Virus record (IMG/VR): IMGVR_UViG_3300042460_000318
Coordinates: 1 to 24,034 of that record
Origin: a virus
Direction: 5' to 3' (one strand)
DNA: 24,034 nt
Shown: piece after piece, positions 2,984 to 22,158 of the stretch
How positions within the stretch are numbered: the stretch's first letter is position 1
Layout of the letters: each line of letters starts with the position of its first letter
Notes under the pieces: model-generated
What the model saw: only the letters and a program-made list of their open reading frames with translations
Database searches by the model: none
What the model was told of the DNA's origin: nothing
Program-made: the position numbers and the translations under genes

Positions 2984-3458
2984 ACTAGCCGCAGTCCTTA
3001 CGGGTTGCCACGCTTGCCGCTCACCCTTCGTAGAGTCTATTAATAAGAAGATGAAAGAGGGGCTGCCAGACAGCCGTATTGCCGATTGGCTCAAGGAGCA
3101 GGGCGGATACATTAGCCGCATCACTCTTGGTCGCCACAAGCGCGAGCATCTCATTGACTCCTTTGAGAAGAAGCGCAAGGAGGCTGCCGAAGTGTTACAG
3201 CGCCAGCAGAAGACCATTAAATCTGAGGTTGATTTGGCTTCGCTGGTACGAAACCAAGTAAACCTTATGCTGGAAGATGGTATACTTCTTCCTACGTTAG
3301 CGGAGGGGCTACGGGCGCAGGAGATCATTGACCGACGGAATGAGAAGTCAACAGATCGCGACCTAACCATCATGCTGGCTCAAGTACTTGGCGGTGTTGC
3401 AGTGATTGAAGGATCTGCACGAGAAATAAGAATGGAGATTACAGATGGTGAAGCGTAA
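2976..3458 (+). CDS. CxxC/HTH protein, candidate small terminase subunit
   Basis: This 160-aa protein begins at ATG 2976 inside the end of the lysin gene (ATGTCTGA overlap). Near the N-terminus is a C11-H-A-C14 motif. A predicted helix-turn-helix spans about 30-58 and includes the ISRITLGRHKREHL stretch, a form (a serine/threonine turn followed by xxRHxxxH) common in phage DNA-binding proteins. The middle is a charged, probably coiled region (60-90), and the C-terminal half is helical and acidic. A short DNA-binding protein with a helical oligomerisation region, upstream of the large terminase and in the same operon, fits a small terminase subunit. The gene is separated from the large terminase by five genes, and a transcription regulator is possible. 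Function is inferred from layout, not from a confirmed family match. Confidence 0.5.
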   Translation: MSELAAVLTGCHACRSPFVESINKKMKEGLPDSRIADWLKEQGGYISRITLGRHKREHLIDSFEKKRKEAAEVLQRQQKTIKSEVDLASLVRNQVNLMLEDGILLPTLAEGLRAQEIIDRRNEKSTDRDLTIMLAQVLGGVAVIEGSAREIRMEITDGEA

Positions 3459-4041: not shown

Positions 4042-4043
4042 TT

Positions 4044-4605: not shown

Positions 4606-5046
4606 ATGACAAAGAGGGAACTGGCTCAGGCGTATATCGCCAAAGCCCTCCCCTTGCTTAACCTTAAGCAATGGGATGTAAAGGTTTCAGAGTCTTTGCC
4701 GCCAGACGATTCGTACGCAGACATTGAGGTTTCTGAGAACCTCTGGTCTGCGACGATTCGTCTTTCGGAGGATTTCTGGAAAGAGAAACCAGAGAATCAG
4801 CGCCGTATTATTGCGCATGAACTTATTCATGTACACTATGCTGGCGTTGAACGGTTGCTGAATACCATTCAGACATCGGTTGGCAGTATGGTCTTTGACG
4901 TGCTAAACCACGTCTGGGATACGGAGACAGAGCGTGGGGCTGACTCGTTGTCTACTCCTTTGGCAAAGGTATTGCCGCTCCCTGATTTCAAGGAGGTTCA
5001 AGATGGCGGGCAAGAAGCCAGCAAAACTCGCAAGCGCAAAGCCTAA
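4606..5046 (+). CDS. Small HELIH zinc metallopeptidase
   Basis: This 146-aa protein has the zinc signature H71-E72-L-I-H75. In zincins the two His bind zinc and the Glu activates water. About 35 residues later, E107-T-E109-R-G-A-D113 gives a candidate third zinc ligand in an ExxxD arrangement, as in gluzincins. The N-terminal half (1-65) has a short helix and strands, like the minimal phage zincins. A very strong ribosome binding site (GGGAGGGG, 4595-4602) sits three bases before ATG 4606, so it may be expressed well. The C-terminus is a basic tail (KTRKRKA). There is no signal peptide or membrane segment, so it acts in the cytoplasm or within the virion. The substrate is unknown. Capsid or scaffold processing, or cleavage of a host factor, are both open. 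Confidence 0.8.
   Translation: MTKRELAQAYIAKALPLLNLKQWDVKVSESLPPDDSYADIEVSENLWSATIRLSEDFWKEKPENQRRIIAHELIHVHYAGVERLLNTIQTSVGSMVFDVLNHVWDTETERGADSLSTPLAKVLPLPDFKEVQDGGQEASKTRKRKA
4991..4996 (+). promoter_or_regulatory. AGGAGG ribosome binding site inside the metallopeptidase gene
   Basis: A perfect AGGAGG lies six bases before ATG 5003, within the 3' end of the metallopeptidase gene. It fixes the start of the small zinc-finger gene at 5003 rather than at the upstream in-frame GTG 4934. Confidence 0.85.
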
Positions 5047-5480: not shown

Positions 5481-6957
5481 TCTCCTAGAAGACCTAAAGG
5501 CTGGTAGGGAAGATCCAGTTTTCTTTGCCGAGAGATTCCTCGGAATCATAATGAACCCTGGGCAGCAACGGTGGGCGCGTTCTTGTGTAGAACGGGCTGA
5601 GAATGGCTGGTCTCCCAAGTTCCTCACCACGGTAGTAAGCGCGGGCAATCGCGCTGGCAAGACTATTGCTATGGCTCTCGTCATCTTCCACTCCGCGTTC
5701 TATAAACTTGGGGTCAAGCCACCACTTGCTGGAGATTCGGACGACGCACTGCGCTGGATCAAGGAGCCGTACGAGTGGTATCACATCGGCATCCAACAGG
5801 AAACCGCCGAACTTGTGTTTCGCGAGTTGACCATGATCTCGCAGGGTATTCACCCAGCGCAGAAAGGGCGGAAGGCTCCACTTTTTATGGAGTTGGGACA
5901 GATCGCGACCTTCAACAAGAAGTATCGCGGCGAGTACCTCTGGTTCCAGTTCAACAAGGCGGTCGGCGGTGCGAGCATCCACTTTCGTACGACGCAAGAC
6001 AAGGCGAAAGCCCTCCTCGGTAAAGATATGAACGGCATCTCGTTTGACGAAGCGGCGTTTGATTCCCATCTCATGACCGTTTATCAAGAGGTCTTGAACC
6101 TTCGCCGCCTTTCTACTGGCGGACAACTTCACTTTATCTCTACCCCTACGGAGGGCATCAACGATTACGCGGATCTTTGGGAACTTGGTAATCCTGAGAA
6201 TAGCGAGCGGGATTCCCAGTTTATCTCGTTCCGAATGTCTACTAGGGATAACATTGGCTACGGGCTTACTCAAGAGAACTTTGATTCCATTGTCCGACAG
6301 CAGGTTGCCTACCTTGTTCCACAGAACATTGACGGGTACTTTATTGAGGCTAGGGAAGCGTACTTCAATGCTCCTCAGGTGGAGAAGGTATTTGACGATA
6401 CAATGCCTGACGAGCAGGAGCCAGTGGCTAAGAGGCGGTACGTTCAGGGGTGCGACCCAGCCATTGCTTCGGACTCCACTTGGGCGATTATCCTTGACTT
6501 TACAGACAAGAAGAGCATGCAAGGCGTGCGTTGCCGCAAGAAATCTGGTCGTCAAACCGTTACCTCCTTAGTAAATATGCTACGAGAGAGCCATCTGTTG
6601 TATAATCAGGGAAGTCATTGTACCACTATCATTGATAATACAGGATTTGGTGGTAAGATGTTTGCTCAGGAGTTGAGTATAATCAAACCGTTAAGACAGG
6701 TAGACTTTGCAGGTACTAAATCTAAGAAGTTAGAAATCCTGTCTGACCTTAAGACTATTATAGATAAAGAAATGATCAAGTTCCCTAAGTCGGGGATCTG
6801 GCTTGAACTACGAAGGCAACTTCTGGGGTATAAGTTAGAGGATCGGAATCTAGAAACTGACGCGGTAATGGCTCTGGCAGTAGCGGTGCGACATGCAATG
6901 CGATCTGCTGGAGAGACAGTAGCCGAGGCTAAGTTCAACTACTTTGGGGAGATGTAA
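5473..6957 (+). CDS. terL: Terminase large subunit (packaging ATPase and nuclease)
   Basis: This 494-aa protein is the motor that pumps DNA into the prohead and cuts the concatemer. GTG 5473 is chosen because it overlaps the upstream stop (GTGTCTAG), and the protein then begins MSSLLEDLK. The open frame extends to 5407 without a ribosome binding site there. The Walker A motif is G58-N-R-A-G-K63-T64. Walker B is I189-S-F-D192-E193. The RNase H-like nuclease has acidic residues at D328 (GCDPA), D388 (IIDNTGFGG) and D463 (ETDAVMA), the usual three-Asp pattern. The length is normal for the family. Codon use in the nuclease half is more AT-rich than in the ATPase half. It ends in TAATG, sharing one base with the portal gene. 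Confidence 0.96.
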   Translation: MSSLLEDLKAGREDPVFFAERFLGIIMNPGQQRWARSCVERAENGWSPKFLTTVVSAGNRAGKTIAMALVIFHSAFYKLGVKPPLAGDSDDALRWIKEPYEWYHIGIQQETAELVFRELTMISQGIHPAQKGRKAPLFMELGQIATFNKKYRGEYLWFQFNKAVGGASIHFRTTQDKAKALLGKDMNGISFDEAAFDSHLMTVYQEVLNLRRLSTGGQLHFISTPTEGINDYADLWELGNPENSERDSQFISFRMSTRDNIGYGLTQENFDSIVRQQVAYLVPQNIDGYFIEAREAYFNAPQVEKVFDDTMPDEQEPVAKRRYVQGCDPAIASDSTWAIILDFTDKKSMQGVRCRKKSGRQTVTSLVNMLRESHLLYNQGSHCTTIIDNTGFGGKMFAQELSIIKPLRQVDFAGTKSKKLEILSDLKTIIDKEMIKFPKSGIWLELRRQLLGYKLEDRNLETDAVMALAVAVRHAMRSAGETVAEAKFNYFGEM

Positions 6958-8948
6958 TGGCAAAGAACATTCCAAGTCTGCAGACAAACGACCCACAGGT
7001 AATTGACATTGCCCAGCGCGGTAATGCGCTCGTCTCTAAGATTGCAGGCGGGGGCAGGAAGAACCTTAACAGCCCAGTTCTTTCTGAAGAGAACAAGCGA
7101 ATCCTCAAGTATGCCAAGACCTCTAACGATGAGAACGCCGTTGCTAAACTTCAGCAGATGCTTGAGCGCAAGGGTTCAGTAGAGCCAGAGAACGCCCGAC
7201 GACGACAACTGTTCCGCCGCTTTGATAATCTGTTCCACGCGAGGACGATCACGGCTGGCGGAGCAGACCATTGGGCTGAAGATCCGTCGGCTCGCATGGC
7301 TGGGCGAACGCACGTTTCGGTCAACGTTCACCCTGCTTATGTTTCAATTCCAGCGTCGCTACAGGCAGTACGACCAGTAATCAACTATCTCCCAGATGGT
7401 CCGACGCGAGATGACCGCAAGGAGGCTCAGGCTCGTGAGCGACTATTCCTCCGATGGTGGGAAGAGGCTGATCTGGATATCATTATGGAAGATGCCGCTC
7501 TGTACAAGTCGCTATACGGTGATACTGCCGCCAAGATTGAATGGAATGAAAACGATGGTATTCCAAAGGTCAGCGTAGTTTCTTCACCAGAGAACCTATA
7601 CCTCGGTTACGGTGCATCCGACTACACTAAGATTGACTGGGCGTTGTACCATTACGGACTTTCTCCGCAGGCTGTGCAGGATGAGTTTGGTCTTGACGTT
7701 ATCCCAATGAAGGATGGAAACGAATACTTCCCATATGTAAACTCCAGCGATCATCTTGATCCGCTGATGCAGGCGTGGGCTGCTTCTGCTGAGCGCATGG
7801 TTGACCGACGAGATACGGCTTACGAGCGCATGCAGATCTCAGTCTTTGACTACTGGTACAAGGTCCCAGTAAACGATAAGGAAGATCGTGTCTACAACTG
7901 CGTCTTTGTTGGCAACAAACTTGTTAGCGAAACCGAGCACCCAGAACTTGACGGCAAACTACCATACCTTCCACTTGTCAACTCTCGCATTCCTGGGTCG
8001 CCATACGGCAAGCCAGAACTCTACGACGTAGAGCAGTTGCTTCGCGAGAAAGACGAGCGTATTACTCAGGCTGCCCAGTTTATTCAGCAGGTTGTTGGCG
8101 GACAGATGTTCCAGTTGATTGGGCAGGATGCGCCAGAGGAAGTTCCAGCCAACGCAATTCCAAAGCCAGGTCGTATCGCTGCTCCTGGGGCTGGAAACCG
8201 TATTGAACCAATCCAGCCGTTTATTCCAAACATTCAGATTGAGCAGTACAACCAGCGTATTGACCGCGAACTTGCGGTTGTCTCTGGCTTGAACGACTTG
8301 CTACTCGGCGTTGCTCCGTCCTCTGTACTTGGATCGTCGCGTGCTATTGCGTCGCTTGTTGCAAACTACGAGCAGCGCATTGCCGCTAAGCGCAAGATCT
8401 TCTACAAGTGGATTAAGGAAGTGTGGAAGGTTGCTGCTAAGATCTGGGAAGAGAAGGATCCTTCAGTTGCTATGATCATCAACGGTCACTACCGTATTGA
8501 GATTACGCCACCTGAACTTACCCCACGAGATACGCTTGAACTCGCAAATACGGCGATCAGTCTTGTGCAGAACCGTATCTGGAGCGCAGAGCGCGCAATG
8601 GACCGTGTCGGCGTGGACGATGTGCAGAACGAGAAGGAAATTATCCGCGACGAGCAGACAGATGCAACGCTTAACCCAGCCGCCGTCTCTACGATGGCAA
8701 GCGTGGTCGGTGCGTTTAAGCAACTTGGTCTTGGCGCACCAGAAGGCATTGGCGATCCTAATGCACCTCTTGACCAAAATCAGGCAATGGCTGCAATGCG
8801 CGGTCAGAATCCACCGCCACAGGGAAGTCAGTCAATGAACGATCAGAACCTCATTCCGCCTGGAGCGGCAGAGGCTCAGCCACAGAATCCAGCCGAGGGT
8901 GCTGCCGCTCTAATGGGCGAGCAACTTGGTCAGCAGCAAGGAGTATAA
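6957..8948 (+). CDS. Portal protein
   Basis: This 663-aa protein forms the dodecameric ring at the capsid vertex through which DNA passes and on which the terminase docks. It follows the large terminase by a one-base TAATG overlap, the standard gene order. Portal-like features include the N-terminal stretch with paired Tyr/Pro-rich strands and a WW-rich helix (about 155-170). Next comes the long central stem-type region with EQLLREKDERITQAAQ (about 360-377), then an SSRAIASLVANYEQRIAAKRKIFYKW helix (about 461-486). The last 60 residues form a Gln/Pro/Ala-rich disordered tail. No protease or MuF domain is fused. The assignment rests on context and overall pattern, with length in the upper range for portals. 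Confidence 0.88.
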   Translation: MAKNIPSLQTNDPQVIDIAQRGNALVSKIAGGGRKNLNSPVLSEENKRILKYAKTSNDENAVAKLQQMLERKGSVEPENARRRQLFRRFDNLFHARTITAGGADHWAEDPSARMAGRTHVSVNVHPAYVSIPASLQAVRPVINYLPDGPTRDDRKEAQARERLFLRWWEEADLDIIMEDAALYKSLYGDTAAKIEWNENDGIPKVSVVSSPENLYLGYGASDYTKIDWALYHYGLSPQAVQDEFGLDVIPMKDGNEYFPYVNSSDHLDPLMQAWAASAERMVDRRDTAYERMQISVFDYWYKVPVNDKEDRVYNCVFVGNKLVSETEHPELDGKLPYLPLVNSRIPGSPYGKPELYDVEQLLREKDERITQAAQFIQQVVGGQMFQLIGQDAPEEVPANAIPKPGRIAAPGAGNRIEPIQPFIPNIQIEQYNQRIDRELAVVSGLNDLLLGVAPSSVLGSSRAIASLVANYEQRIAAKRKIFYKWIKEVWKVAAKIWEEKDPSVAMIINGHYRIEITPPELTPRDTLELANTAISLVQNRIWSAERAMDRVGVDDVQNEKEIIRDEQTDATLNPAAVSTMASVVGAFKQLGLGAPEGIGDPNAPLDQNQAMAAMRGQNPPPQGSQSMNDQNLIPPGAAEAQPQNPAEGAAALMGEQLGQQQGV

Positions 8949-8951: not shown

Positions 8952-11786
8952 ATGGCAGTAACTGGACAGTTTGGTCGCGCACTTACGGGTAACGGCTCGT
9001 TGTCAAGTGCTATCTCAAGCATTGCGTCAGAGTTCGTTACCCTGCGAACAAATCGCATCTACGACGCGTACATTAATGAGGAAGCCCTAGACGGTACTGT
9101 CATTGATGCTCAGACTGCTATTGCCGAACTGAAGAAGTTGATGGCTGGAACGACTGAGGATACACGAACTGGTCAGAGTATTGCCGACATGATCCGTGCA
9201 GTCCGCAAGGCAAACCGCACGCGAACCCTCAACAAGTTGGATGCAGACTTGGCTGAGATGGGAGCCGAGAAAGGCGACTATGGAAAGATGGTTACGGCAA
9301 TTCAGGAAATGCTTCTAGACCCAACGCTAAACCCAGACGACGAAGCAGAACTACGCAAGGAATTGAGCACTGCTGTCCAGATGCTTTTTGACAACTCAAG
9401 GAACCAGTTTAATGCTAGTGGGAAAATTACATTCAACGGCAAGACAATTGACTTTGACGGTGGCGCAAACTACGAACAGTTCCTTCAGATCTACGACAGC
9501 GTTGCTCGGGCAAACCCAGATATGGCAGACAAGATCAATCGTCAAAAGTACGAGGCTGAAGTATCAGTTGCCGTTTCTCAGGCAAATGCTATTTGGGCAA
9601 GCGTTTCACGAACTACCGATTCTCAGAAGTTGCAAGGGTATGTTGCCCAGTTGAACATTCTTCGCAAAGCCTATGACAAGTTGAAGGCTCAGGGGCTAGA
9701 AGGTGGCGAGGCTGGCGTAGATCTCCTAGATAATATCCGAACCATTGAGGGTTACGAAGCAAATAGCAAGTCAAACATTGGTCAAGAGTCCAGCAACAAG
9801 CGTATCTCTGGTATGGATACCGAGGTCTACGGCGCTCTCTACGATATTGACGACGCGCTTGCCTTGATGGGCGTTAATACTGGTGAGGGCGGAATTGCAA
9901 ACTTGCTGCTTACAAATCCTAATGCTGCCTACAATGCTATTGATATGGCAATTGCCATGAACGGTGGATCAACAAGCATTACGGTAGACGGTAAGGTTGT
10001 AGAGATTGACCGCGACACCATCTATGCTGTTATTGCCGACACCAAGGCTTCTGCCGTCTCTGCAAATAACTGGGCAAAGAATAATCCTAACGTTAGTGCT
10101 TCTAACAAGATTGCCATCCGTAACTACGTAACAAGTGCCACGGCGCTCTTTAACAACGTTCCAAACCTAAAGGTTGAGGATGCGTACGACAATGCTCGCA
10201 CTACGCTAGAAACCGCGCTAGAGGCAAACCCAGACGATATCAATGCTCGCGTTAATGCGCTTAAGGCATTTGGTAAGGCAATCCGTACGCTGGCTGGAAC
10301 AACTGGAAACACCGCAGTTAGGACTGCACTAACGGCAGAGGCAGACCTGTTTGAAAGTGGCAAGCAGCCAAAGCAAGGTGTCATGGTTTACGGCGAGTGG
10401 AGTGGAAACCTTGATGGCGGACCAGGTGGGGAAAGCGCACTTGCGGTTGGTAGCCAACTTGGAAGGCTCATTAACCCACGCGTTGACTCTGGAGATGTAT
10501 CTATCTCCGAAGCCATTGCGTTGATCTACAGCCAGCAAGGAACATTTAACGCTGGTGGTGGTGAGGTATACATTGACGGCATTACTGGCGAGCGAGTCGC
10601 AACTGCTGTGTCGGAAGACGTATCCGCCTATGACAATAGCCAAGGCATGGGCGGAACGACGATGGTTAGCAATTCCTTTGGTGACGTAACCGTTGATACT
10701 CAGCACTCAGCCGTTTATGCTCGTTACCGTATTGTTAACTCAACCTTTAGCGGCAATACAACTGACGCTGGTCTAAAGGCTGCAACCGTCGGTTGGATTA
10801 GCGTTATTACTGACGATAAGGGCAATCCTATTGAGGTTGTTCTCTTTAACGCTCCTGGGTCAGGTAATGGCGTTGAGAGGGTTGTCGGGGCAGCAGATGT
10901 TGCAACAATTCTTGCAACGATGGGTATGAGTATGGGAAATATCCCGTTGCGTCAGGTTGGTAATAATACAGTGGTTGTTGCAAGCGCAGCGTTTGTTGCG
11001 GCAATGAACCAATCAAGAAACGGATTTAACGCGAACACTACTGATATTACTAACGGGGACTCTGACTTCTGGAGTAAACTAGTTACAAATGGTGGCTACA
11101 CAAGCCCAACGACATTTGCAAATCTAGAAACTGAAGGATTCTACAAACTTCTTGATGCAGGAAAGATCAAGACCCAGACTGGCGCAAACGGTGAGGTTCT
11201 CGTCTTTGTTGCTGGCAAAGGCGTAGGAGAGAATCAGGTTTGGACAAACATTACTGGCTCTCTTGGTGAAGAACTTCTTGGAGTTATCCGAGAGGCGCAG
11301 CAACTTATTGATGCTGGCGCACCACCCCCAGGCGGAGTTCCAGGGTATGTTCCACCAGAAGGTGGTGGCTCTGCTCCAAACGAGGATGGTAGTGGTGTTG
11401 GCGGCGGCGGCATTCCAGGGGGTCCTGCTGGTACAAGTAGGGGCGGCTTGAACCTTCGCGAAGCAATTGACGCTGCAAAGGCTCGCCGAGAAGCGGCTGC
11501 TGCGGCACGTGCCGCACGGCTTGCACCAGAAACTGGCGAAGGTCAGATGCGACCGACCAGGGATGGTCTCAAGCGAACCACGACTAAGCCGCCAGTTACC
11601 CCAGTAAAGAACCCAACCATTGATGGATATTCAGCAATTGAAAAGTCGCGAGAAAATCAAGCAATGCTTGGAACGTTTATGCGCAACATGCCAACTGCCT
11701 CCGCAACAACGCCGCAGTCGGCATCAACTGGTGCGCAGGGTAAGAAGGTTCAAGGGGTTGAGCGCGTCGCAAGAAAGGCAGTCTAA
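8952..11786 (+). CDS. 944-aa large virion-associated protein, unrecognised
   Basis: The gene starts at ATG 8952, three bases after the portal stop, with AAGGAG upstream (8938-8943). Residues 1-450 look mostly helical, with many charged Ala-rich stretches. Residues 450-780 are more strand-like and Gly/Asn/Thr-rich. A Pro/Gly-rich linker spans 791-830 (PPPGGVP onward, then GGGG runs). After it come a charged Ala-rich helix (about 838-865) and a basic tail. There are no transmembrane helices, signal peptide or catalytic motif that I can name. It lies between portal and scaffold with another giant gene, so a head-associated, internal or ejected protein is likely by context. It lacks the long hydrophobic coiled pattern of a tape measure. 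I cannot assign a function. Confidence 0.8.
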   Translation: MAVTGQFGRALTGNGSLSSAISSIASEFVTLRTNRIYDAYINEEALDGTVIDAQTAIAELKKLMAGTTEDTRTGQSIADMIRAVRKANRTRTLNKLDADLAEMGAEKGDYGKMVTAIQEMLLDPTLNPDDEAELRKELSTAVQMLFDNSRNQFNASGKITFNGKTIDFDGGANYEQFLQIYDSVARANPDMADKINRQKYEAEVSVAVSQANAIWASVSRTTDSQKLQGYVAQLNILRKAYDKLKAQGLEGGEAGVDLLDNIRTIEGYEANSKSNIGQESSNKRISGMDTEVYGALYDIDDALALMGVNTGEGGIANLLLTNPNAAYNAIDMAIAMNGGSTSITVDGKVVEIDRDTIYAVIADTKASAVSANNWAKNNPNVSASNKIAIRNYVTSATALFNNVPNLKVEDAYDNARTTLETALEANPDDINARVNALKAFGKAIRTLAGTTGNTAVRTALTAEADLFESGKQPKQGVMVYGEWSGNLDGGPGGESALAVGSQLGRLINPRVDSGDVSISEAIALIYSQQGTFNAGGGEVYIDGITGERVATAVSEDVSAYDNSQGMGGTTMVSNSFGDVTVDTQHSAVYARYRIVNSTFSGNTTDAGLKAATVGWISVITDDKGNPIEVVLFNAPGSGNGVERVVGAADVATILATMGMSMGNIPLRQVGNNTVVVASAAFVAAMNQSRNGFNANTTDITNGDSDFWSKLVTNGGYTSPTTFANLETEGFYKLLDAGKIKTQTGANGEVLVFVAGKGVGENQVWTNITGSLGEELLGVIREAQQLIDAGAPPPGGVPGYVPPEGGGSAPNEDGSGVGGGGIPGGPAGTSRGGLNLREAIDAAKARREAAAAARAARLAPETGEGQMRPTRDGLKRTTTKPPVTPVKNPTIDGYSAIEKSRENQAMLGTFMRNMPTASATTPQSASTGAQGKKVQGVERVARKAV

Positions 11787-14700
11787 GTGGTACAAGGTCC
11801 TGGAATTCCAGCACCAGTAGGTGACGAGTACGTCCCTCAATCAGAACGTCCTGGAGTCTTTAACGTTGATATTGTCGGCAAGGCTCCAGGAGTTGTTGGC
11901 GACGGACTAGGTGCAATTGGCGGTGTTGCTGCTGGTGCGCTTACTGGGCTTGCGGATCTAACGCAGGTTCCATTCCGCATTGCTGCTCAGCCTATCGCAG
12001 AAGCACGGCTGGTAAATGCGTTGCGATATGGCGACAATCAAGTTGACCGTAAGTATCTTAACGCTGTTGCTGGTGGGCGTAGTATTTCCGAAGTCGCAGA
12101 TCAGATGCTTAAGGATGGCGTTGGTCTCAGCGGTGGCGTTGCCCACGATCTTCTAGCCAACATCTTCTTGGACCCGTTTAACCTTATTATGGCTGGAGTA
12201 GGCAAGGGATACAGCGTTGGTCGGCGAGCCTCAGACATTCAGTCTCGCTACACTGACTCTGCGCATAGTTCTGGCGTAGATGCTGTTGCCCGTGCAGGAG
12301 CAAATCAGGCAGACCTTGACTGGCTTAACAGCGGACGTGGGAAGCAACTGCTTGGAAAAATGTACACGAGAACATCTCGTGGTCTAAGCGGAGTTACCCG
12401 TGGTGCTGCTCAGGCAATGTTCGGCAAGACTATGCCGTACTACATTGCTGCTATGGGCGGCAACGTTCTGCGCCATATCTTTAACGCCGCAGAAAGGGCT
12501 GGTCGCTCTGACGCAATTACCGCCGCTATTGGCTCTGCTGCCCACCACGTTACGATGGATGCTGGCGCTGCAATTGTCACACGTCGGATCTACGGAGAGG
12601 TTCGTTCTGCTGCCCTGCAGAAGGCACAGATTATTGCTCAGTCTGAGGGAGTTGATGACGTTGCTGGGTATGCACGCTTTGAGCGAGCCGTATCGCTGCA
12701 GTCTCAGACTTCAGATGTAACTCGTGTTGAGATTCGTGCGCATTGGGAAATGCTTCATAGGCAGTACACCGATTCTGGAATGAACCGCGCCGCGCTTGCT
12801 GACGCGATTGCCAATGATGATACCGCTGCAATGATTAACCAGAACATCGGAAAGAACCGTGTCGGCGCAGTTGCTGAGGATGCTCGGTCACTGGACGAGA
12901 TTCAAGTTCAGCGCATCCTTGGTACGCAGAAAGACTTCTACGTATCCGAGAACGTTACGACTTTGGCAAATGGCGCAAACGATGCTGAGCGCGTACAGAT
13001 TGCTCGTTACGAATTTGTTGAGAACGTTTCCCCAGTTCTGGGCAGAAGCGCAGCGGAAGAAGCATGGGCTGCTATCCTCTTGGACATCGGCAAGCCAAAG
13101 AATACCGAGTCGCTACTGCGATCTCTTTCTGAGGCAATGTACGCTTCGCAACAGATTCGCTTCGGTGCAGTTGCAGAGTCGTTTGGTGCAGCGAAGACAA
13201 GCCTTCTGCAGCGTATCAATCAGGCTGGGGAAGCCTTTGCCGCTGGCTTGCCGATTAAGACTCGTGCAATTATTATGGATCAGGTTCCGCGCTTGACCGT
13301 TGTAGCGCGAGATACCCTTACTGATGTTGATGCGAGCACAATTGCTAAGCAACTAGGGGACGAGGCGCTAGACATTTCGGATAAGGCACAGGCTGCTGTC
13401 AATGCTGTCTACCAGTTCAGCATCCTTCGCAAGCGATTCCACGCCCCGACCCTACTCAAGGTAGCCAACGAAGATCCAGATAAGGTGGTGAAGATGGTTG
13501 CTAAGGAACTAGAGCAGATCGTCAGCCAGGGTGCGCTGCTTAAGGAAGTTCCTATTACCAACTGGAAGGGCATTTCTGCTTCACTACCAGAACTCAAGCA
13601 GATGAAAGACTCTGCCGAACGTGGTGGATACCGACTCGTTCTAGAGCCAGAGACGGCTGCAAGCGTTACGAGCAAGGTGTACTCTGACCAGAAGGTCAAG
13701 GACGTATACCGACTTGGCGTTGATATGTGGGTTCCAATTACTGGCGGTAAGATGGATGTAGCCTTTGGCAACCGCAATACGCTAGGTCGCGCCCTAGACA
13801 TGCTTATGACCGAGAAGTCAACCGCTGGAACGTTTGCAAACGTGCTTGTCCGAATGCAGGAATACGCTACGGCAAACAATATCCCATTAAGCCGCGACGA
13901 AATCGTTGCACTGCATAAGTCTCTTGTCAACCGTTCGTTCAAGTCTGGCGAGGCATCAACCTCTATGCGGCAGGAAATCAAGGGAGATATCCGAAACTTT
14001 GGCGGGTCTGAGGGTAGTGTTCTTGATGAGTTCTACTTTGAACTTCGCAAGAAAGATCCACAGGCAGCACAAAGATTTGCTGAGCAAGTTAAGAATGGCA
14101 GCCTCCGACGCATGATCTTCTACGCTGCGGAGGGCGACTGGAAGAAGGTTGGTGTCAGCACAAAGTTTACAGGATATCTAAAGAACAAGGCAATCGGCGG
14201 CGACACGTACACTCTTATCGGCGATATGCTTTACCCAATGCTAAAGTTTAAGACCAGCCAAGTCTTCTCTATCCAGGACATTACTGAGTCTAAGTTCTGG
14301 AATACTATTCGTGGCTACCAAGACGAATGGAATATTGGTAAAGTCAATGACATTGTTCGCTATGGAAACAAGCGTAAGTACAAGGTGCGAGACCCATACA
14401 CGGGTGAGCCACTAGAACTTGACGCTACCGAAATTGTTTCCGAGTCTCTCGTATCTTCGCGGGACGAACTGCGCTACGCCCAGCAGATGGGTTTGCTGCA
14501 CGCATACTATGGGGCAAACGCTGCTGAGCAGATCCTAACCTTTGGTCGCGGCAATGAGGGATTTGTGACCGCGCTTAAGGCTGGTCTTGGTCGTGACTAT
14601 ACAGATATTAAAAACCTTGACTATCTGAAATACGTAGCAGCAGAAGGACTTGACGACCTTGCTGAAAACTTTGCTGGGCGCATGTCTGCAGTACATCCAG

Positions 14701-16103
14701 TTGCATGGAACCTATTCCTCGGCGCAGCCAATGGAGATCCACGAGCAGCAACACTACTATTCCTTCGTGAGCGTCAGGCTGCCATCCGAGGTGAGGCTGC
14801 ATCACGCGCACTCTTTGAAAGCCAGAAGCCATTTGGCATTGGCTTCGGTCGTAGGTTTGATGACGACGTTCTTAAACTACTTGACAAGGCTGCCACCGAT
14901 GCTGGTAAAACGCTTCGCTCGTCAACCAACCCAAACGTAAATGGAAAGATGCTGCGCGATCTGCAGGCTGCAATCAACGTGCTTACTGGGGATGCCCGTG
15001 CAATTGGCTATTCGGACGAAGCAATTGCTGGTCTATCCGATGCAGCGAATGGCTTGGCTAATGCTGCAGAAAATCTAAAGTTTGCGGGCAAGACTGGTAA
15101 ACTGACAAAGCAGTCCAAGGAAATTATTACGACTGCCTTGACTCAGGTTGCTGATGCCCGTGCGCGATTGCGTGCAGAGTTTACTGCTGCAACTGCGCGA
15201 CGCAAAACCGTAGAAGATATGGTGCTTGGTCTTGACGGAGTGACTAAGAAGACTGCTCGCGAAATTGGCGATCTGTTTGTTGTCTCGGAGCGACGCAAGG
15301 AAATGCTGCCAGGAATTTCTAACGAGATTACCGCCTTTATGAATGGCGAGACGGCAGACCCAGGTCTTGCACAGCGAGTTGCCGACCACCTCCTGAAGAT
15401 CCGTGAGGCGCGGGTAGAGGAAGAGACTGGATGGAACGCAATCTTCCATGCGCTCACTGGCGCTGCTCGCAACGCTGAGAAGACACACTACTTCAACACC
15501 CAGAGAAACGTGCTGGAGCGATCACTAAATCACCCAGTCTTTGCCGCATACCCAGTTTCGTACATGTTTGGAAAGGTGTTCCCAGAGTACCTACGAGCAC
15601 TGTATCTAAGCCCAACCCGTGGCTTGAGTGGCGCTGTGCTTGCGCCGTGGACACTTATGCTTAACCTTGCAAGCGGTGGGAAGTTCACCGCCAAGTCGTG
15701 GGGGCAGTTTGCCCCTCTTGTCGGGTTCAACTCTGTTCGCAAGATCCGCGATGCAATGCTTGAAGATAACGCCGAACAGCAGAAGCCAAGCGCCCTGACG
15801 TACTTCTTTGCAAGCGTATTGATTCCAGGTTTGCCAACAGAAATTAGCGTTTCGGTTGCCGCCCCAGTGCGCCGAGTTGTAGAAGCACTGGACGAGGGTA
15901 AGGATCCTGTTGAGTCCGCTCTTTACGGTTTGGAGACTATGACGAAGAATCTTTCTGGTCCTGGACGAGTAGTTTCAACAGTCAGACAACTCTACTCAGA
16001 AGCCTCTGATACAATAGAAGAAGAAGGCGGCATCATTGAAGCCGTTGGTAGTGGTATTGGAAACGCCGTAGAAAGTCTTGGCGATTTCCTTAGGAACGAA
16101 TAA
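11787..16103 (+). CDS. 1438-aa giant protein, candidate internal or ejection protein
   Basis: This is the largest gene in the window. It starts at GTG 11787, directly after the TAA of the 944-aa gene, with AAAGG eight bases before the start. Residues 35-58 form a Gly/Ala/Val-rich hydrophobic stretch (GVVGDGLGAIGGVAAGALTG). Residues 200-850 are mainly helical with many charged residues. Around 1260-1310 are aromatic and hydrophobic stretches (YPVSYMFGKVFPEYLRALYL; LAPWTLMLNLASGG). A hydrophobic LIPGLPTEI segment and an acidic C-terminus (IEEEGGIIEAVGSGIGNAVESL) follow. No transglycosylase, peptidase or nuclease motif is seen. Size, position between portal and scaffold, and membrane-prone segments fit an internal protein ejected into the host, but this is inference. 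A tape measure is the alternative, made less likely by position upstream of the capsid gene. Confidence 0.8.
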   Translation: MVQGPGIPAPVGDEYVPQSERPGVFNVDIVGKAPGVVGDGLGAIGGVAAGALTGLADLTQVPFRIAAQPIAEARLVNALRYGDNQVDRKYLNAVAGGRSISEVADQMLKDGVGLSGGVAHDLLANIFLDPFNLIMAGVGKGYSVGRRASDIQSRYTDSAHSSGVDAVARAGANQADLDWLNSGRGKQLLGKMYTRTSRGLSGVTRGAAQAMFGKTMPYYIAAMGGNVLRHIFNAAERAGRSDAITAAIGSAAHHVTMDAGAAIVTRRIYGEVRSAALQKAQIIAQSEGVDDVAGYARFERAVSLQSQTSDVTRVEIRAHWEMLHRQYTDSGMNRAALADAIANDDTAAMINQNIGKNRVGAVAEDARSLDEIQVQRILGTQKDFYVSENVTTLANGANDAERVQIARYEFVENVSPVLGRSAAEEAWAAILLDIGKPKNTESLLRSLSEAMYASQQIRFGAVAESFGAAKTSLLQRINQAGEAFAAGLPIKTRAIIMDQVPRLTVVARDTLTDVDASTIAKQLGDEALDISDKAQAAVNAVYQFSILRKRFHAPTLLKVANEDPDKVVKMVAKELEQIVSQGALLKEVPITNWKGISASLPELKQMKDSAERGGYRLVLEPETAASVTSKVYSDQKVKDVYRLGVDMWVPITGGKMDVAFGNRNTLGRALDMLMTEKSTAGTFANVLVRMQEYATANNIPLSRDEIVALHKSLVNRSFKSGEASTSMRQEIKGDIRNFGGSEGSVLDEFYFELRKKDPQAAQRFAEQVKNGSLRRMIFYAAEGDWKKVGVSTKFTGYLKNKAIGGDTYTLIGDMLYPMLKFKTSQVFSIQDITESKFWNTIRGYQDEWNIGKVNDIVRYGNKRKYKVRDPYTGEPLELDATEIVSESLVSSRDELRYAQQMGLLHAYYGANAAEQILTFGRGNEGFVTALKAGLGRDYTDIKNLDYLKYVAAEGLDDLAENFAGRMSAVHPVAWNLFLGAANGDPRAATLLFLRERQAAIRGEAASRALFESQKPFGIGFGRRFDDDVLKLLDKAATDAGKTLRSSTNPNVNGKMLRDLQAAINVLTGDARAIGYSDEAIAGLSDAANGLANAAENLKFAGKTGKLTKQSKEIITTALTQVADARARLRAEFTAATARRKTVEDMVLGLDGVTKKTAREIGDLFVVSERRKEMLPGISNEITAFMNGETADPGLAQRVADHLLKIREARVEEETGWNAIFHALTGAARNAEKTHYFNTQRNVLERSLNHPVFAAYPVSYMFGKVFPEYLRALYLSPTRGLSGAVLAPWTLMLNLASGGKFTAKSWGQFAPLVGFNSVRKIRDAMLEDNAEQQKPSALTYFFASVLIPGLPTEISVSVAAPVRRVVEALDEGKDPVESALYGLETMTKNLSGPGRVVSTVRQLYSEASDTIEEEGGIIEAVGSGIGNAVESLGDFLRNE

Positions 16104-16118
16104 GAAGGAGAATCACAG

Positions 16119-16700
16119 ATGAGCGAAGAAGTCGTAACGACCACCGAAGAGTCGCAGAAGCCAGTAGCCCCCGTTGAAGGTGCTGCTGTTGAAGCCACTC
16201 CAGAGGCGGACGATGTTGCCACTTGGAAGAAGCGTCTCGCTGGTAAGGACCAGGCGTTGACCGCAGCACAGAAGTCTCTGGAAGTCTTTAAGACTGAAGC
16301 AGAGAATCTTAAGCGGTGGAAGGCTGAACAAGAGCAAGCAAACATGTCCGAGTTTGAGAAGGCTCAAGTGAAGTTGGCAACCCTGGAAGCCGAGTTAAAC
16401 CAGACGAAGGAGTACGCCCGTATGGAGCGTATCCGAGCGTCTGCCCCGTCATACGCCCAGTTTATTGCTGATACGGCAGGACTTGATGAGGAGGCTCGTG
16501 CAGTCTCCTTTGAGAAGTTCCTTGCTGACATCAAGGGTAAGCAGGACGAAGAGAAGGGTATTTCATCGGACGCTGGAACAAATGTTGTTAGTAAGCCAAC
16601 GCTCAACACTCGCAAGGACTCAACGCCCACTGGAAAGCGGACGATTGCAGACATTGAAGAGGAGTTGAAGAAGTTGGGAAATCCCTTTCTAGGGATGTAA
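16119..16700 (+). CDS. Capsid scaffolding protein
   Basis: This 193-aa protein has the usual scaffold layout. It has an acidic, disordered N-terminus (1-35), a long charged coiled coil with Gln/Glu/Lys heptads (about 36-100), and an alpha-helical C-terminal half ending in a basic and amphipathic region (IADIEEELKKLGNPFLGM) that would bind the capsid protein. It lies directly upstream of the major capsid gene, 23 bases away. A ribosome binding site (AAGGAG, 16105-16110) precedes ATG 16119. No protease signature is present, so scaffold removal would use another enzyme or exit without cleavage. The HELIH metallopeptidase further upstream is a candidate partner. Confidence 0.85.
   Translation: MSEEVVTTTEESQKPVAPVEGAAVEATPEADDVATWKKRLAGKDQALTAAQKSLEVFKTEAENLKRWKAEQEQANMSEFEKAQVKLATLEAELNQTKEYARMERIRASAPSYAQFIADTAGLDEEARAVSFEKFLADIKGKQDEEKGISSDAGTNVVSKPTLNTRKDSTPTGKRTIADIEEELKKLGNPFLGM
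16681..16696 (+). other. Short inverted repeat just before the major capsid gene
   Basis: A perfect 6-bp stem, ATCCCT at 16681-16686 with AGGGAT at 16691-16696 and a four-base loop, covers the last codons of the scaffold gene. It lies 27 bases before the capsid ATG. It has no T-run, so it could act as an mRNA-processing or stability element rather than a terminator. Confidence 0.4.
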
Positions 16701-16710
16701 TAGTTAAGTA

Positions 16711-16716
16711 AAGGAG
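16711..16716 (+). promoter_or_regulatory. Ribosome binding site of the major capsid gene
   Basis: AAGGAG lies seven bases before ATG 16724, an optimal site for a highly translated gene. Confidence 0.8.
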
Positions 16717-16723
16717 CCACATC

Positions 16724-17704
16724 ATGGCTTATGTAAATACTGGTACGACGAACTTTTCGGCTCTCGTCCAGGATCTCGTTCAGGCTAAGGCTGAGCAGGA
16801 ACTTCGCGCTCGGTTGGTTCACGCCAACCCAGATGCCTACGTTCATGGTCGCTTTGTAAAGGGCACGAACCAGATTCGTTTCGCTCGCTATTCTGACCTC
16901 GGCGCAAATACCACGGTTCTTGGGGAAGGCGTTCCGCCAACCTCACAGAGCATGAGCATTTCGTCCGACGCATTCAGCGCATTGCAGTACGGTCAGACGC
17001 TCTCAATTACCGACCTCGCTCAGTTGGACTCGCCACACGACTTGATTTCAGTTGCTTCTGACCGCCTTGCGCGTCAGGCTGCTGAGACCATGGACCTTGT
17101 TGTGCGCGATGTTCTGGCTGCGGGAACCAATGTTCGGTACGCTCCAAACATTAACGCAAGCACTGGCGCTCAGACCGCAAACACCGCTCGTGGTACGATT
17201 ACCGCGACGGCTCGTATTACGGGTGAGCAGGTAAAGAAGACGGTTGCTTCCCTCAAGGCAGCGAACGTCCCAGCCTTTGCCGACGGCACGTACCGCTGCA
17301 TCATCCATCCATTCCAGGAGTACGATCTGATTTCAGATACGACTGCCAATGGTTGGCTTGAGGCTAACAAGTACGTGGACAATACCCCTCTCATCACTGG
17401 TGAGATTGGTAAGTTCGCTGGCGTTCGCTTTGTGGTCTCGTCAAGGGCTAAGGTCTTTACGGGCGCAAGCGGCGGCGCAAACGATGCTAACGTGTACTCA
17501 GCCCATTTCTTTGGTCCTGATTCGTACACCGTTGGTGACTCGCAGACTCTTCAGGCATACTTCACCGCCCCAGGCGGAGATCACTCCGACCCACTCGCTC
17601 AGATGGCGATTGCTGGTTGGAAGATGCGCTTCGGCGCGAAGTTGCTTGACCTTGCTGGTGCGAAGTACGTTCGTCTTGAGACGGGCGCAACGCTCGGCGC
17701 GTAG
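16724..17704 (+). CDS. Major capsid protein, N4-gp56 family
   Basis: This 326-aa protein is the HK97-fold shell protein of the N4-gp56 family. Recognisable are the N-terminal A-x-L-V-QD-LVQAKAEQELRAR helix, the LGEGVPP loop (about 66-72), and the segment from YGQTLSITDLAQLDSPHDL to LARQAAETMDLVVRDVLAAGTN (about 88-135). Also present are the CIIHPFQEYDL strand and loop (about 190-200) and a C-terminal domain with GWKMRFGAKLL. The length is slightly under the 350-400 residues usual for the family. It follows the scaffold, has a strong ribosome binding site, and ends in tandem stops (TAG TAA), consistent with very high expression. There is no prohead-protease-type N-terminal delta domain, which agrees with the separate scaffold gene. 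Confidence 0.94.
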   Translation: MAYVNTGTTNFSALVQDLVQAKAEQELRARLVHANPDAYVHGRFVKGTNQIRFARYSDLGANTTVLGEGVPPTSQSMSISSDAFSALQYGQTLSITDLAQLDSPHDLISVASDRLARQAAETMDLVVRDVLAAGTNVRYAPNINASTGAQTANTARGTITATARITGEQVKKTVASLKAANVPAFADGTYRCIIHPFQEYDLISDTTANGWLEANKYVDNTPLITGEIGKFAGVRFVVSSRAKVFTGASGGANDANVYSAHFFGPDSYTVGDSQTLQAYFTAPGGDHSDPLAQMAIAGWKMRFGAKLLDLAGAKYVRLETGATLGA

Positions 17705-17718
17705 TAACTAGGAAGCGG

Positions 17719-17740
17719 GGGGCTGCTGGCGGGCAGCCCC
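17719..17740 (+). terminator. GC-rich hairpin after the capsid gene (weak or partial terminator)
   Basis: A perfect 8-bp stem (GGGGCTGC with GCAGCCCC) with a six-base loop lies 14 bases after the capsid stop. Only two T follow, so full intrinsic termination is doubtful. It may lower read-through into the connector gene or protect the capsid mRNA 3' end. Confidence 0.6.
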
Positions 17741-17761
17741 TTGCGACCATAAGGAGATAGC

Positions 17762-18433
17762 ATGGCAACTAGAGCAGATATCCGAATCCAGATTAGGCGA
17801 GAACTCCGTGACGTTGACGGGAATACTTGGCTTGATACAGAACTAAACGATCTGATCAATGCTGGGATCAATGCCGTATCTGACTTGTCGCCACGCGAAG
17901 CAGTTGAGACCGTAACGTGGACTGCTGCAGCATTAGGTTCACAGTTTGGTTTGCAAAAGATTGTTGACCCAACAACTACATTCCGAAACATCTTCAGGGT
18001 TGAGGTCCTTACCGTAGACGGAATGGTGTGGCAGACGTTGCCACCTGATAACGGAGAAGGATCTTCAAGCGGCTGGTCGTTCTGGCAGGGCAATGTCCGC
18101 CTACCAGAGAAGTACACTCTGCCAGTTAGTTACAACGGCGGGGGCTACGAGCAAGTAGTCGTTCGTATCTACGGCTACGCCGATCATACGTTGCTTGACA
18201 GCGACGCGACCGCGACAACCCTAACAACCCGTGAGCAGGATGCCGTCCGCGTCTTCTGCACGGCTGAGGCTCTCTCGCGACTGATGATCAACCGAGCAAC
18301 CTTCCAGCAATGGCAGGTTTCTTCTGGTGCAAACAACGTTAGCATTAGCGAGTTGGCTGTACTGGCTAACAGCGCACGCTACCGATGGTCGCAGGAACGC
18401 GGCAAGTTGCGCAAGATGCGAAGAATTTCATGA
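17762..18433 (+). CDS. Head-tail connector / adaptor protein
   Basis: This 223-aa protein begins at ATG 17762 with AAGGAG upstream. The N-terminal 50 residues, with RADIRIQIRRELRD then TWLDTELNDLINAGIN, match the helical opening seen in phage head-tail connectors. A beta-rich middle (60-150) and a helical end (TREQDAVRVFCTAEALSRL) follow. It is the first gene after the capsid, where the ring that joins the portal to the tail is expected. The last four bases overlap the next start (ATGA). The family assignment is by pattern and context. Confidence 0.72.
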   Translation: MATRADIRIQIRRELRDVDGNTWLDTELNDLINAGINAVSDLSPREAVETVTWTAAALGSQFGLQKIVDPTTTFRNIFRVEVLTVDGMVWQTLPPDNGEGSSSGWSFWQGNVRLPEKYTLPVSYNGGGYEQVVVRIYGYADHTLLDSDATATTLTTREQDAVRVFCTAEALSRLMINRATFQQWQVSSGANNVSISELAVLANSARYRWSQERGKLRKMRRIS

Positions 18434-19431
18434 TTGATCTATCGCTGCCAGTCACTATTGAGGACGGTGCTGGTCATGCGCTAAATCTAAACTCCCTCGT
18501 GGGCGAGCAAAGTTTGGCTGGCGGCAGCGTGCCGCTTAGCGGATATCTTGTAGACGCGTTTACTTTTGGCGGATCTAACCCTGTCGGCTACGAGGAGTCT
18601 CGCTCTACTGATGACGGCGTAGACGCAACGGAAGCGTACGTGGGTCGCCGCATTCTGAATGCTGTGGTCTGGGTATATGGCGCTACCCGACTAGACTTGT
18701 ACAATCGGATGCAGGTTCTTATCAACGCAATGCGCTTCTTGCCAAACCGATACATCCAGACAGACGGGTTTAGGAAGTTACAGTTTACAATGCTTACCCC
18801 AGATGTAACCAACTACCCACCTGACGGATCGCTGTCTGCGTACTGCGTTGTACGACCAGCACAGTTGCCTGCTATTCAGGTAGACAGCAGTACCATTACT
18901 GGCTCTGACGAACTAGGATACGCTAGTCGTATCTCGCTGTCGTGGCTGATGAAGTACCCCTTTAAGTACGCAAGTTCCCTAAACTCTCTGAATGTTCCGA
19001 TTACTAATACCAATACCAACGTAGCAAACCATGGTGCGGCAGATGCTGATCCGCAACTTCTTATTACTGCGACTGGCAGCCAGACCACAGACGTTAAGAT
19101 CACCGTTACTTTAAACGGTACACCGCTAGAACTGCTTGTAACCAAGACACTTGGCACCGACGGAAGCATTACCCGATCTATCCTAATTGACTTTAAAGAT
19201 CAGGTTGTCTACACCCGCGAGCAAACAGGAAGTGTCATCTCTTCTATCCTGTCCCAGAATCTTATTGTCATTAACTCTGGTGCAACGTTTGGACAGATCC
19301 ACCCGATGCGAGACTCAGACGATGGGGTAACGCCAACGGTTGTTAAGGTGCGCATCCAGAATTCTAGTACGCTTGCTGATATCACCACGGGGTACACGGC
19401 AACTTTGTCGTGGCGAGAAGCGTGGTTCTAG
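18430..19431 (+). CDS. Dit-like distal tail protein
   Basis: This 333-aa protein is read from ATG 18430, which overlaps the connector stop in ATGA. The open frame extends upstream to 18385 without support. The N-terminal half (to about 180) has the RRILNAVVWVYGATRLDLYNRM helix, then the KYPFKYAS motif at the end of a beta-sandwich. The C-terminal half (about 195-333) shows repeated strands, IDFKDQVVY and the SATLSWREAWF-type ending, like the galectin-like domain of Dit proteins. Dit forms the hexamer at the tail tip that carries the hub and fibres. It is followed without a gap by the hub/fibre protein. Tape measure and tail tube genes are absent upstream, which is unusual for a Dit-bearing phage. 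Confidence 0.7.
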   Translation: MIDLSLPVTIEDGAGHALNLNSLVGEQSLAGGSVPLSGYLVDAFTFGGSNPVGYEESRSTDDGVDATEAYVGRRILNAVVWVYGATRLDLYNRMQVLINAMRFLPNRYIQTDGFRKLQFTMLTPDVTNYPPDGSLSAYCVVRPAQLPAIQVDSSTITGSDELGYASRISLSWLMKYPFKYASSLNSLNVPITNTNTNVANHGAADADPQLLITATGSQTTDVKITVTLNGTPLELLVTKTLGTDGSITRSILIDFKDQVVYTREQTGSVISSILSQNLIVINSGATFGQIHPMRDSDDGVTPTVVKVRIQNSSTLADITTGYTATLSWREAWF

Positions 19432-22158
19432 GTGGCAACGTCAACATTTAATACCAGCGTAACGGACGCGAGTGGCTATACAACTCTATCTGGAACGAGT
19501 CCTTCAAGGGTTGAAGCAAGTGATGCACCAGACTTCTGGAATGGCGTATACCGATCTAGCCCAGTAGGAGTTACTGAAAGCGGGGGTCTATCGTTTCGTT
19601 CTTTGATTAAGATCCCTATTGATTTCTCTACCCTTACTGGAGCGGTGCAAATCACTGGAGCGACACTTAAACTCCGATACTTTAACGTCAGCACCACACT
19701 AAACCAGTCTGCAAATACTGGATCGCGTACTGTAAACATCCACCGCTCGTTGGTTTCCTTTACGGAGTCTCCTGGGTCTGATCCAGGTACGGGGCTAGGA
19801 TGGCAATCCTCTACTACCCAGAACTGGGACAAGAAACTCAAGACGGCAGGCACGCATTACGATGCTACTGTCATTGCAAGCAAAGCCCTTAGCGGGACCG
19901 TAGCCAACAAGGTTTTGCACGAGTACGATATCCTACCATTCATCCTAAAGATCGCGCCAGCGTCGCTCCTAGTGGGGTCTACGACGGGCGTAGCGGGAGA
20001 GGGACTAGCCAATAACGGGCTGCTGCTAAAGATGAGCGCAACAGGGTCAAGCCAAGCGGCGGAGTACTACAGCCGAGAAGGTGCTGCCACCTACGCCACC
20101 GATGCTCCAACCATTGTCCTTACCTACACAACTAACCAAGCCCCAACTGTTCCGACAAGCCTAAGTCCTAATAGCGGTGCGCTGCAGGCAGGTGCAAACA
20201 TTACGTTCACCGCCAACTTCAACGACCCAGATGCTGGTGACACAATGAAGTCCTTTGGTATTCAGATCACTGAGGGCGAGGACTTCTCTACTACCCTTAC
20301 GGATCAAGAAGTAACTGCCACAACGATTTCCTTTGTTTCCCCTATGACTAACTATACCTCTGGTATTATTTATAAATGGCGCGTGCGCGCAACAGATGCG
20401 GCTGGTGCAGTGAGCGATTGGTCGGAGACGCAAACGTTTACTGCTCCAACAAACACGTCAACCGCGCCGCCACCGTTAACGGGTAACACAAACTTTGCCA
20501 CAACGCAGACTCCAACGCGTAGCAAGTACCGTGTAGAGGTTTACTCTATCCTTGCATCGCTCAACGGGTTTGACCCAAAGCCTATTGCGGTACTCTTTGA
20601 CGCTAAGAACATTGGTGTTGGCACGCAAGTCAACGGTGCTGGAGAATGCTTCTTTACGCTAGTCAACACACACGATCAGATTGAGGTGATTGATCCGCAG
20701 AAGACCTTCTTCCGTATCTGCCGATGGGATAAGTGGGCTGGCTACTACCGAGTCATGACCGAAGGACTCATTACCCGCAAGGAAGAGGGTAGGAACGAGA
20801 CGCTCTTCTACGGCATTGATAAACTAGGAATGCTTAACCGAAGCATGGTCTTCACAGATACGGTGGGGGCAACCTACTCGCACGTATCCGTAACCCTCTC
20901 ACAACTCCATGACTCTATCCTGCGGCGTACTGGGCGAACCGCAACGGTGACTGCTGCAAGCGTTGCATCTGGCGAGATCACTTACACCGCAGCCTCCCAC
21001 CCATTCCGTGGTGGAGATGTCGTTACCGTGGTCGGGACGACTGGATTAGACTGCACGCTATCAACAGTGACCGCCACAACTGGCACTACCTTCAAGGTTA
21101 AGTCGGCATCAACGGCAAGCGCGTGGACGGGCACGGCATCTTCCACCCTAGCAAATTCGGTGATTGACTTGGGCTGGGGCGAGTCGCCGACGGATCTCTT
21201 CAGGGATTATTCCGTATCCAACCCATCTTCATCCGCTACCTCGTCTGCAACCAAGAGCATTCAGGTGTCTGGGCAGAATTGCCTTGATGCTATCTCTGCC
21301 TTTTCCGACCTATTGATGGCAGGAACAACGAACAAGGTCATCCTTGAGAACCCAAACATTGGCTTGCCAGCCGCAGCAATTGAAACTATGAACGTCGGTT
21401 TGCGCTACCGCCACCTCACCATCACCGACATTGTCAAGCCAGGTTGGTGGCTGCAGTATGGCGTGAACGTCAAGCAGTACAAACTCAGCGACAACCTTGA
21501 CCAGATGTCTACCCGAGCATCAGTCATCAACCGATCTAACATTGGCTCAAGCCTTACAAGCAGCCCTTACAATGGCGACACCGACGCAGATCTTTACGAT
21601 CAGTACCTGCTCATCCAGCGTATTGAGGTTACCAACGAAGAGCGCAACGAGATTGATTACTCGGCACAGTTCCGATACAACACGCATCCTGATCGGCTGT
21701 TTACGTTAGAGGTAAACGTTAAGCCAAACTGGATTACTCCATTTGACGGTTACACTGTAGGCGATGACTTGACTGTGTACATTGTGGATCTTCCAGTTGA
21801 TCTTAAAAAGGATCTAACACTTGTTGCACAACAGTGGATTGCAAACGATAACGGTGCTGAGTACATGGCGTTTGCATTCTCACAACGTATGGAGAAAGAG
21901 TTCCTCATCCGAAAGGAAACGCCTCTTACGCCAGATCCTACTGGTAAAATCTTGCCCGATCTTGACCCTACTCCGAAGACTGTAGATGAGGGAAGTACGC
22001 TTGATCAAATGCGTGGCGCACCTGGTCGTGGTATAGTTGGTGGAGAACCGCAACCAGATCCTATCGTTGCACCTCCACGTATTATCACGCCGCCACAGCC
22101 AACGCTTCCACCAGAGGTGACACCGCCACCGCTATTCCCACGGAAGCCAGTGCTATGA
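19432..22158 (+). CDS. Large tail-tip protein: DNRLRE-like, Fn3-like and hub-like regions
   Basis: This 908-aa protein starts at GTG 19432, directly after the TAG of the Dit-like gene. Residues 1-232 resemble a DNRLRE-type beta-sandwich (LSFRSLIKIPIDF, GATLKLRYF, then GLLLKMSATG and APTIVLTYT). Such domains are often carbohydrate-binding or structural. Residues 237-345 look like one Fn3/Ig-like domain (IIYKWRVRATDAAGAVSDWS). Residues 364-850 resemble a tail-hub-like region (SKYRVEVYS, FFRICRWDKWAGYYRVM, then LFTLEVNVKPNW strands). The last 50 residues are Pro-rich. It probably attaches to the Dit-like ring and contacts the host surface. No lytic enzyme motif is seen. The domain order, with accessory domains before the hub-like part, is unusual. 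Family names are from pattern recall. Confidence 0.7.
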   Translation: MATSTFNTSVTDASGYTTLSGTSPSRVEASDAPDFWNGVYRSSPVGVTESGGLSFRSLIKIPIDFSTLTGAVQITGATLKLRYFNVSTTLNQSANTGSRTVNIHRSLVSFTESPGSDPGTGLGWQSSTTQNWDKKLKTAGTHYDATVIASKALSGTVANKVLHEYDILPFILKIAPASLLVGSTTGVAGEGLANNGLLLKMSATGSSQAAEYYSREGAATYATDAPTIVLTYTTNQAPTVPTSLSPNSGALQAGANITFTANFNDPDAGDTMKSFGIQITEGEDFSTTLTDQEVTATTISFVSPMTNYTSGIIYKWRVRATDAAGAVSDWSETQTFTAPTNTSTAPPPLTGNTNFATTQTPTRSKYRVEVYSILASLNGFDPKPIAVLFDAKNIGVGTQVNGAGECFFTLVNTHDQIEVIDPQKTFFRICRWDKWAGYYRVMTEGLITRKEEGRNETLFYGIDKLGMLNRSMVFTDTVGATYSHVSVTLSQLHDSILRRTGRTATVTAASVASGEITYTAASHPFRGGDVVTVVGTTGLDCTLSTVTATTGTTFKVKSASTASAWTGTASSTLANSVIDLGWGESPTDLFRDYSVSNPSSSATSSATKSIQVSGQNCLDAISAFSDLLMAGTTNKVILENPNIGLPAAAIETMNVGLRYRHLTITDIVKPGWWLQYGVNVKQYKLSDNLDQMSTRASVINRSNIGSSLTSSPYNGDTDADLYDQYLLIQRIEVTNEERNEIDYSAQFRYNTHPDRLFTLEVNVKPNWITPFDGYTVGDDLTVYIVDLPVDLKKDLTLVAQQWIANDNGAEYMAFAFSQRMEKEFLIRKETPLTPDPTGKILPDLDPTPKTVDEGSTLDQMRGAPGRGIVGGEPQPDPIVAPPRIITPPQPTLPPEVTPPPLFPRKPVL

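Follow-up and report, generated by a model that had tools for sequence, protein, structure and literature searches.

Two giant cysteine-free proteins encoded beside the portal gene are candidate ejection proteins of an uncultured, probably short-tailed phage lineage

Phage T7 stores proteins in its head and threads them into the bacterium before its DNA. Among the phages reviewed in PMC8954989, a gp15-like protein (431–982 aa) is followed by a larger gp16-like protein (609–1337 aa), and the two are paired by size and order rather than by sequence. Identity between gp15 proteins is 34% where portals keep 69%, and phi29-like phages of Gram-positive hosts are without ejection proteins (PMC8954989). 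Short-tailed phages repeatedly encode giant proteins beside the portal, and these account for a quarter of the genome in cluster EK and for about 30% of the DNA described here. This DNA, an IMG/VR virus record of 24,034 nucleotides (IMGVR_UViG_3300042460_000318, hereafter the window), is nearly identical to contigs L001 and L002 and encodes two giant proteins of 944 aa (G944) and 1438 aa (G1438). We propose, with a probability of about 0.72, that they serve a short-tailed dsDNA phage as internal virion (ejection) proteins and form a new, unrelated family. What we suggest is a functional analogy with the T7 proteins; membership of the T7 family is not claimed.

The window carries, in this order and on the plus strand, the genes for portal, G944, G1438, scaffold and capsid. 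The portal gene (6957–8948) was recognised by SPP1_portal of Pfam (E 3.9e-7) and by phrog_64 (E 6.6e-9). G944 (8952–11786) starts with ATG 3 nt after the portal stop, and an AAGGAG ribosome-binding site (8938–8943) lies 8 nt before this start, within the 3′ end of the portal gene. G1438 (11787–16103) starts with a GTG that abuts the TAA of G944, leaving a gap of 0 nt, and its ribosome-binding site, AAAGG (11774–11778), lies 8 nt upstream within the 3′ end of G944. Downstream come a weak scaffold match (16119–16700; phrog_3760 E 0.002, and position) and the major capsid gene (16724–17704; phrog_1357 E 6.9e-48, Phage_capsid_3 E 1.4e-16). The ORF list contains both frames exactly as the original prediction had described them at 8952–16103, tightly coupled and placed in the head module between portal and scaffold, and the "about 7.1 kb, close to a third of the window" that it gave is 7,152 b or 29.8%. 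G1438 is in frame straight after the G944 stop, but a fused reading was rejected because a ribosome-binding site precedes G1438 and because in several relatives (e.g., L007, L010, L013) the two genes share one base and are read in different frames. Protein-level conservation in independent contigs shows that G944 and G1438 are real genes. In one relative, L012, a frameshift near the start breaks the G944 homolog (12492–14145), which is either a genuine change or an assembly error.

To collect relatives, we searched IMG/VR with the terminase, the giant proteins and the portal; the portal alignment yielded 303 candidates, of which 80 were kept. Wherever a retrieved locus extends at least about 6 kb past the portal, two giants directly follow the portal: the first is 783–975 aa long and the second 1285 to more than 1879 aa, reaching 2146 aa in genome G017. 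Where the sequence goes on further, scaffold and capsid come after them. Homology between two independently built G1438 alignments extends along most of their length (hhalign E 3e-42), and FLDPFNLI and NHPVF..YPxSYMFGK are conserved motifs of the protein. Identity to the window is 29–38% for G944 and 36–43% for G1438, compared to 80–83% for the terminase, 72–77% for the portal, about 80–90% for the capsid and 65–73% for the scaffold; on the tail side, it is 52–60% for the adaptor and 45–50% for a protein resembling the distal tail protein Dit. Thus, the giants diverge far faster than the portal, terminase or capsid. Judging from IMG sample numbers alone, the clade appears to be a freshwater one.

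The N-terminus of G1438 homologs recurs elsewhere in two genomes, where that of a late ORF is nearly the same (G001, 2872–4167, MARLVQR and MANLVQR; G002, 13443–14792, MVRLVS and MVRLVS). A shared N-terminal peptide acting as a capsid-targeting signal was considered and dropped; it is absent in G010 and G013.

Neither giant has a Pfam or PDB sequence match, and the only PHROG hit at an E limit of 1 was at chance level (0.12). Tblastn of both giants, the portal and the terminase against 50,697 phage records gave no match, searches of phage records with the giants of relatives gave none either, and a scan of the genome contigs for a prophage or host link found none. A scan of the giants for peptidoglycan-hydrolase motifs returned scattered short matches and no consistent motif, while single weak hits to lysin and endolysin PHROGs could not be traced to any family member or domain. 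By sequence, the giants are a family without detectable relatives of known function, and the remark in the original prediction that they hold no nameable motif stands.

Predicted structure offers a lead for the first giant. The AlphaFold model of G944 (34 sequences, mean pLDDT 73.8) comprises a helical half (residues 17–470) with two short hairpins (158–167 and 342–351), a beta-rich part (about 537–645) and a disordered Pro/Gly-rich tail (795–944). When this model was compared with BFVD by Foldseek, a same-family protein ranked first (E 2e-57) and an unnamed protein second. The next three matches were internal virion or structural proteins of Providencia PSTRCR_114, Pantoea LIMElight and Acinetobacter Petty (E 1.6e-3 to 5.7e-3), all of which are, by size and position, gp15-position genes of T7-type phages. 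Because the TM-scores were low and nothing in the PDB matched below 1e-3, we treat this fold match as a lead and not as proof. By hhalign, similarity to T7-type profiles was not significant (gp15, E 0.026; gp16, E 0.43 and 0.38).

The giants nevertheless resemble T7-type gp15 and gp16 in several ways: in both cases adjacent late genes encode a smaller and then a larger protein, both Cys-free, helical and fast-evolving, with the marginal fold match of the first in addition. The closest layout is that of the LIMElight gp15–gp16 pair, ORF46–ORF47, whose proteins have 914 and 1368 aa, where ours have 944 and 1438 aa. Size and order also agree with the reviewed gp15 and gp16 ranges, 1438 aa lying slightly above the upper limit. 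Three differences stand out: (i) the genes of the giants lie between portal and scaffold, whereas the ejection genes of T7 and P22 come after the tail genes; (ii) no gp14-like gene (about 200 aa, with transmembrane helices) adjoins the giants; and (iii) unlike in T7-type gp16, no transglycosylase or other lytic domain was found in either protein.

For G1438, residues 239–1438 were modelled by AlphaFold as almost entirely helix (pLDDT 62.7), and the sole significant Foldseek match was a same-family protein. The several membrane-prone stretches that had been suggested for this protein did not hold up, since no 19-residue window reaches a Kyte-Doolittle value of 1.6, the best being 1.31 at residues 35–53 and 1337–1355. 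No clear transmembrane segment emerged, which counts against the ejection reading. Its closest BFVD relative (40% identity) is named "large polyvalent protein associated domain-containing protein," and this name is the basis for the idea that the giants are head-packaged polyvalent or effector proteins that act on host targets after injection instead of forming a conduit. Polyvalent proteins of portal-terminase phages are predicted to be packaged and injected (PMC5512222). However, such proteins are defined by several catalytic domains, disparate enzymatic domains being combined in one polypeptide, whereas Pfam scans revealed no enzymatic domain in any family member. The LPD38 model was also unmatched in 16 relatives, in a search that lacked a positive control, the control genomes being likewise without a match. 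We therefore regard a polyvalent nature of the giants as improbable.

A further feature links the giants to ejection proteins: both are entirely devoid of cysteine. Their genes contain no in-frame TGY codon, where base composition predicts 74.5, while the other two frames contain 61 and 191. The same holds in relatives, whose giants have a single cysteine in 128,464 residues (114 ORFs), while their own portals have 125 in 46,803 residues. At the rate of the window's terminase, portal, capsid, adaptor and tail proteins, 9.6 cysteines would be expected in the two giants and none was found (P about 7e-5), and 25 of 33 annotated ejection or internal proteins are Cys-free compared to 1 of 30 portals, capsids, adaptors, nozzles and fibres, the P value being a guide only because the proteins compared are related within groups. 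Cys-free proteins include T7 gp15 and gp16, P22 gp7, gp20 and gp16, and N4 gp50 (part), gp51 and gp52, and Cys-free pairs also occur in LIMElight, Petty, PSTRCR_114 and others; Epsilon15 is an exception, its ejection proteins having a few cysteines. Among tape-measure proteins, those of lambda (H) and TP901-1 have none and that of DumpTruck has 1 in 2419 residues. Because the lambda and TP901-1 tape-measure proteins, Beephvirinae gp9 and Akoni gp31 are Cys-free as well, the mark fits proteins that pass through a channel and not ejection proteins alone. Absence of cysteine is a criterion derived in this analysis and not an established one, and a narrow literature search found no statement of Cys avoidance in such proteins. 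Counting cysteines could offer a simple way to spot proteins that are threaded through a phage channel, with no need for homology.

Could the giants instead stay in the particle for good, as structural components of the head or of the short tail, such as a neck or a core associated with the portal? Their genes sit in the head module, and some fixed virion proteins are Cys-free too, such as the N4 capsid protein. Yet the window's terminase, portal, capsid, adaptor, Dit-like and tail proteins all contain cysteine while the giants have none, and Foldseek gave no nozzle- or spike-like fold for G944 or G1438. A permanent structural role thus seems very improbable to us.

What type of phage encodes the giants? 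Among the near-complete genomes, G001 is 39.9 kb long and its end genes adjoin in the relative G002, while G012 (41.4 kb) and G013 (41.0 kb) have direct terminal repeats of 127 and 123 bp. Their late region runs from terminase, portal, the two giants, scaffold and capsid to adaptor, Dit-like protein, large tail protein, fibre and small genes, and these genomes of about 40–41 kb contain no recognisable candidate for a tube, terminator, tail chaperone or tape-measure gene. In the window, a putative portal adaptor of short-tail type (17762–18433, plus strand) matches SU10_adaptor at E 0.0014, below the cut-off; the G013 homolog reaches the curated cut-off. Distant relatives of the capsid include podophages, e.g., Pagevirus and Beephvirinae. 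In the human faecal contig L018 (MT835607), a capsid gene with 34% identity to that of the window is followed by an ORF of 2685 aa (13404–21461). Because an adaptor gene is present and no tail tube, chaperone or tape-measure gene is recognisable, the virion is probably short-tailed. The original prediction had spoken of internal or ejected proteins that replace missing long-tail parts; the first part of this statement is the best-supported reading, but the second misleads in part, since the phage appears to be of an ordinary short-tailed kind, for which such parts were never required.

Alternatively, the phage may be long-tailed, with tube genes that have diverged beyond recognition, and one or both giants may be its tape-measure proteins. 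Tape-measure proteins are large, helical and Cys-free or nearly so, as the giants are, and they appear low in the Foldseek lists of both G944 and G1438. Moreover, one G944 relative matches TMP_3 (PF20155), and the window encodes the Dit-like protein (18385–19431; phrog_33 E 3e-6). The TMP_3 match, however, scores 20.1 bits against a cut-off of 41, and the same model gives sub-threshold matches in most control genomes too; PhageMin_Tail (PF10145) gave no match. A confident match to a tape-measure or tail-tube family, which the original prediction had named as evidence against itself, was therefore not found. Gene order also argues against this alternative: tape-measure genes sit between the tube and chaperone genes and Dit, whereas in all relatives the giants have the portal on one side and the scaffold on the other, and they precede scaffold and capsid. 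The Dit-like gene comes immediately after the adaptor gene, and no tube, terminator or chaperone gene separates the two. Tape-measure identity is thus unlikely, and less likely than an ejection function. The weak Dit match directly after a short-tail adaptor is in itself an unusual pairing for a phage without a tube gene.

Two other groups of phages encode comparable giants. Gp9 of the Beephvirinae (Streptomyces phages), about 1640 aa, is giant and Cys-free, and its gene follows the portal gene of a podophage-like genome at a distance of a few small genes. The protein has a short DF/DL..LDP(L/F) motif region in common with our giants; in contrast, these phages have one giant and not two, with tail genes in between. 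Homology to gp9 was not significant (hhalign E 0.042, over 46 columns only). Akoni gp31 (4487 aa), from the cluster EK podophages of Microbacterium, is likewise giant, Cys-free and encoded beside the portal, and its phage is short-tailed and has no tape measure; in contrast, the gene lies before the portal and the protein is three times longer. Homology to gp31 was not significant either (E 0.09 and 0.54).

The ejection reading rests on gene order and neighbourhood, protein sizes, fast divergence, the lack of cysteine, the helical fold, the short-tail adaptor and the absence of a tail-tube gene; from these we infer that both giants are virion proteins, that they are ejected and form a conduit, and what each of them does. 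How would such proteins operate? G944 and G1438 would sit in the head close to the portal. Once the phage has adsorbed, both would precede the DNA out through the channel of portal, adaptor and tail and would then build a conduit spanning the host envelope. By analogy with T7-type gp15–gp16, the helical tunnel would be made by G944, while the larger G1438 would reach the cytoplasmic membrane and the DNA. The ejection-protein case thereby provides testable candidates in an uncultured clade. More tentatively, and with considerable doubt on our part, a large freshwater short-tailed lineage might use an ejection machine that consists of two giants, bears no sequence relationship to the T7, P22 and N4 machines and lacks an adjacent gp14-like (outer-membrane) component, possibly serving in a one-membrane host, and Cys avoidance might be a general rule for portal-channel proteins. 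If true, Cys avoidance could flag such proteins where homology fails.

Further Cys-free proteins are encoded outside the late head module. In G013 (IMGVR_UViG_3300032291_001563), another Cys-free giant of 2388 aa lies at 28852–36018, between the early region and the fibre gene, and the matching place holds two Cys-free ORFs in G010 (484 and 600 aa) and two in G001 (431 and 704 aa). These may be more channel-passing proteins. In the window, a small protein conserved upstream of the terminase gene (4606–5046) matches an SprT-like zinc peptidase at E 0.0018, below the cut-off. It is preceded at 3445–4589 by genes for two small basic Cys-free proteins (198 and 183 aa) with glycine-zipper-like hydrophobic stretches, which are possible candidates for gp14-like membrane components.
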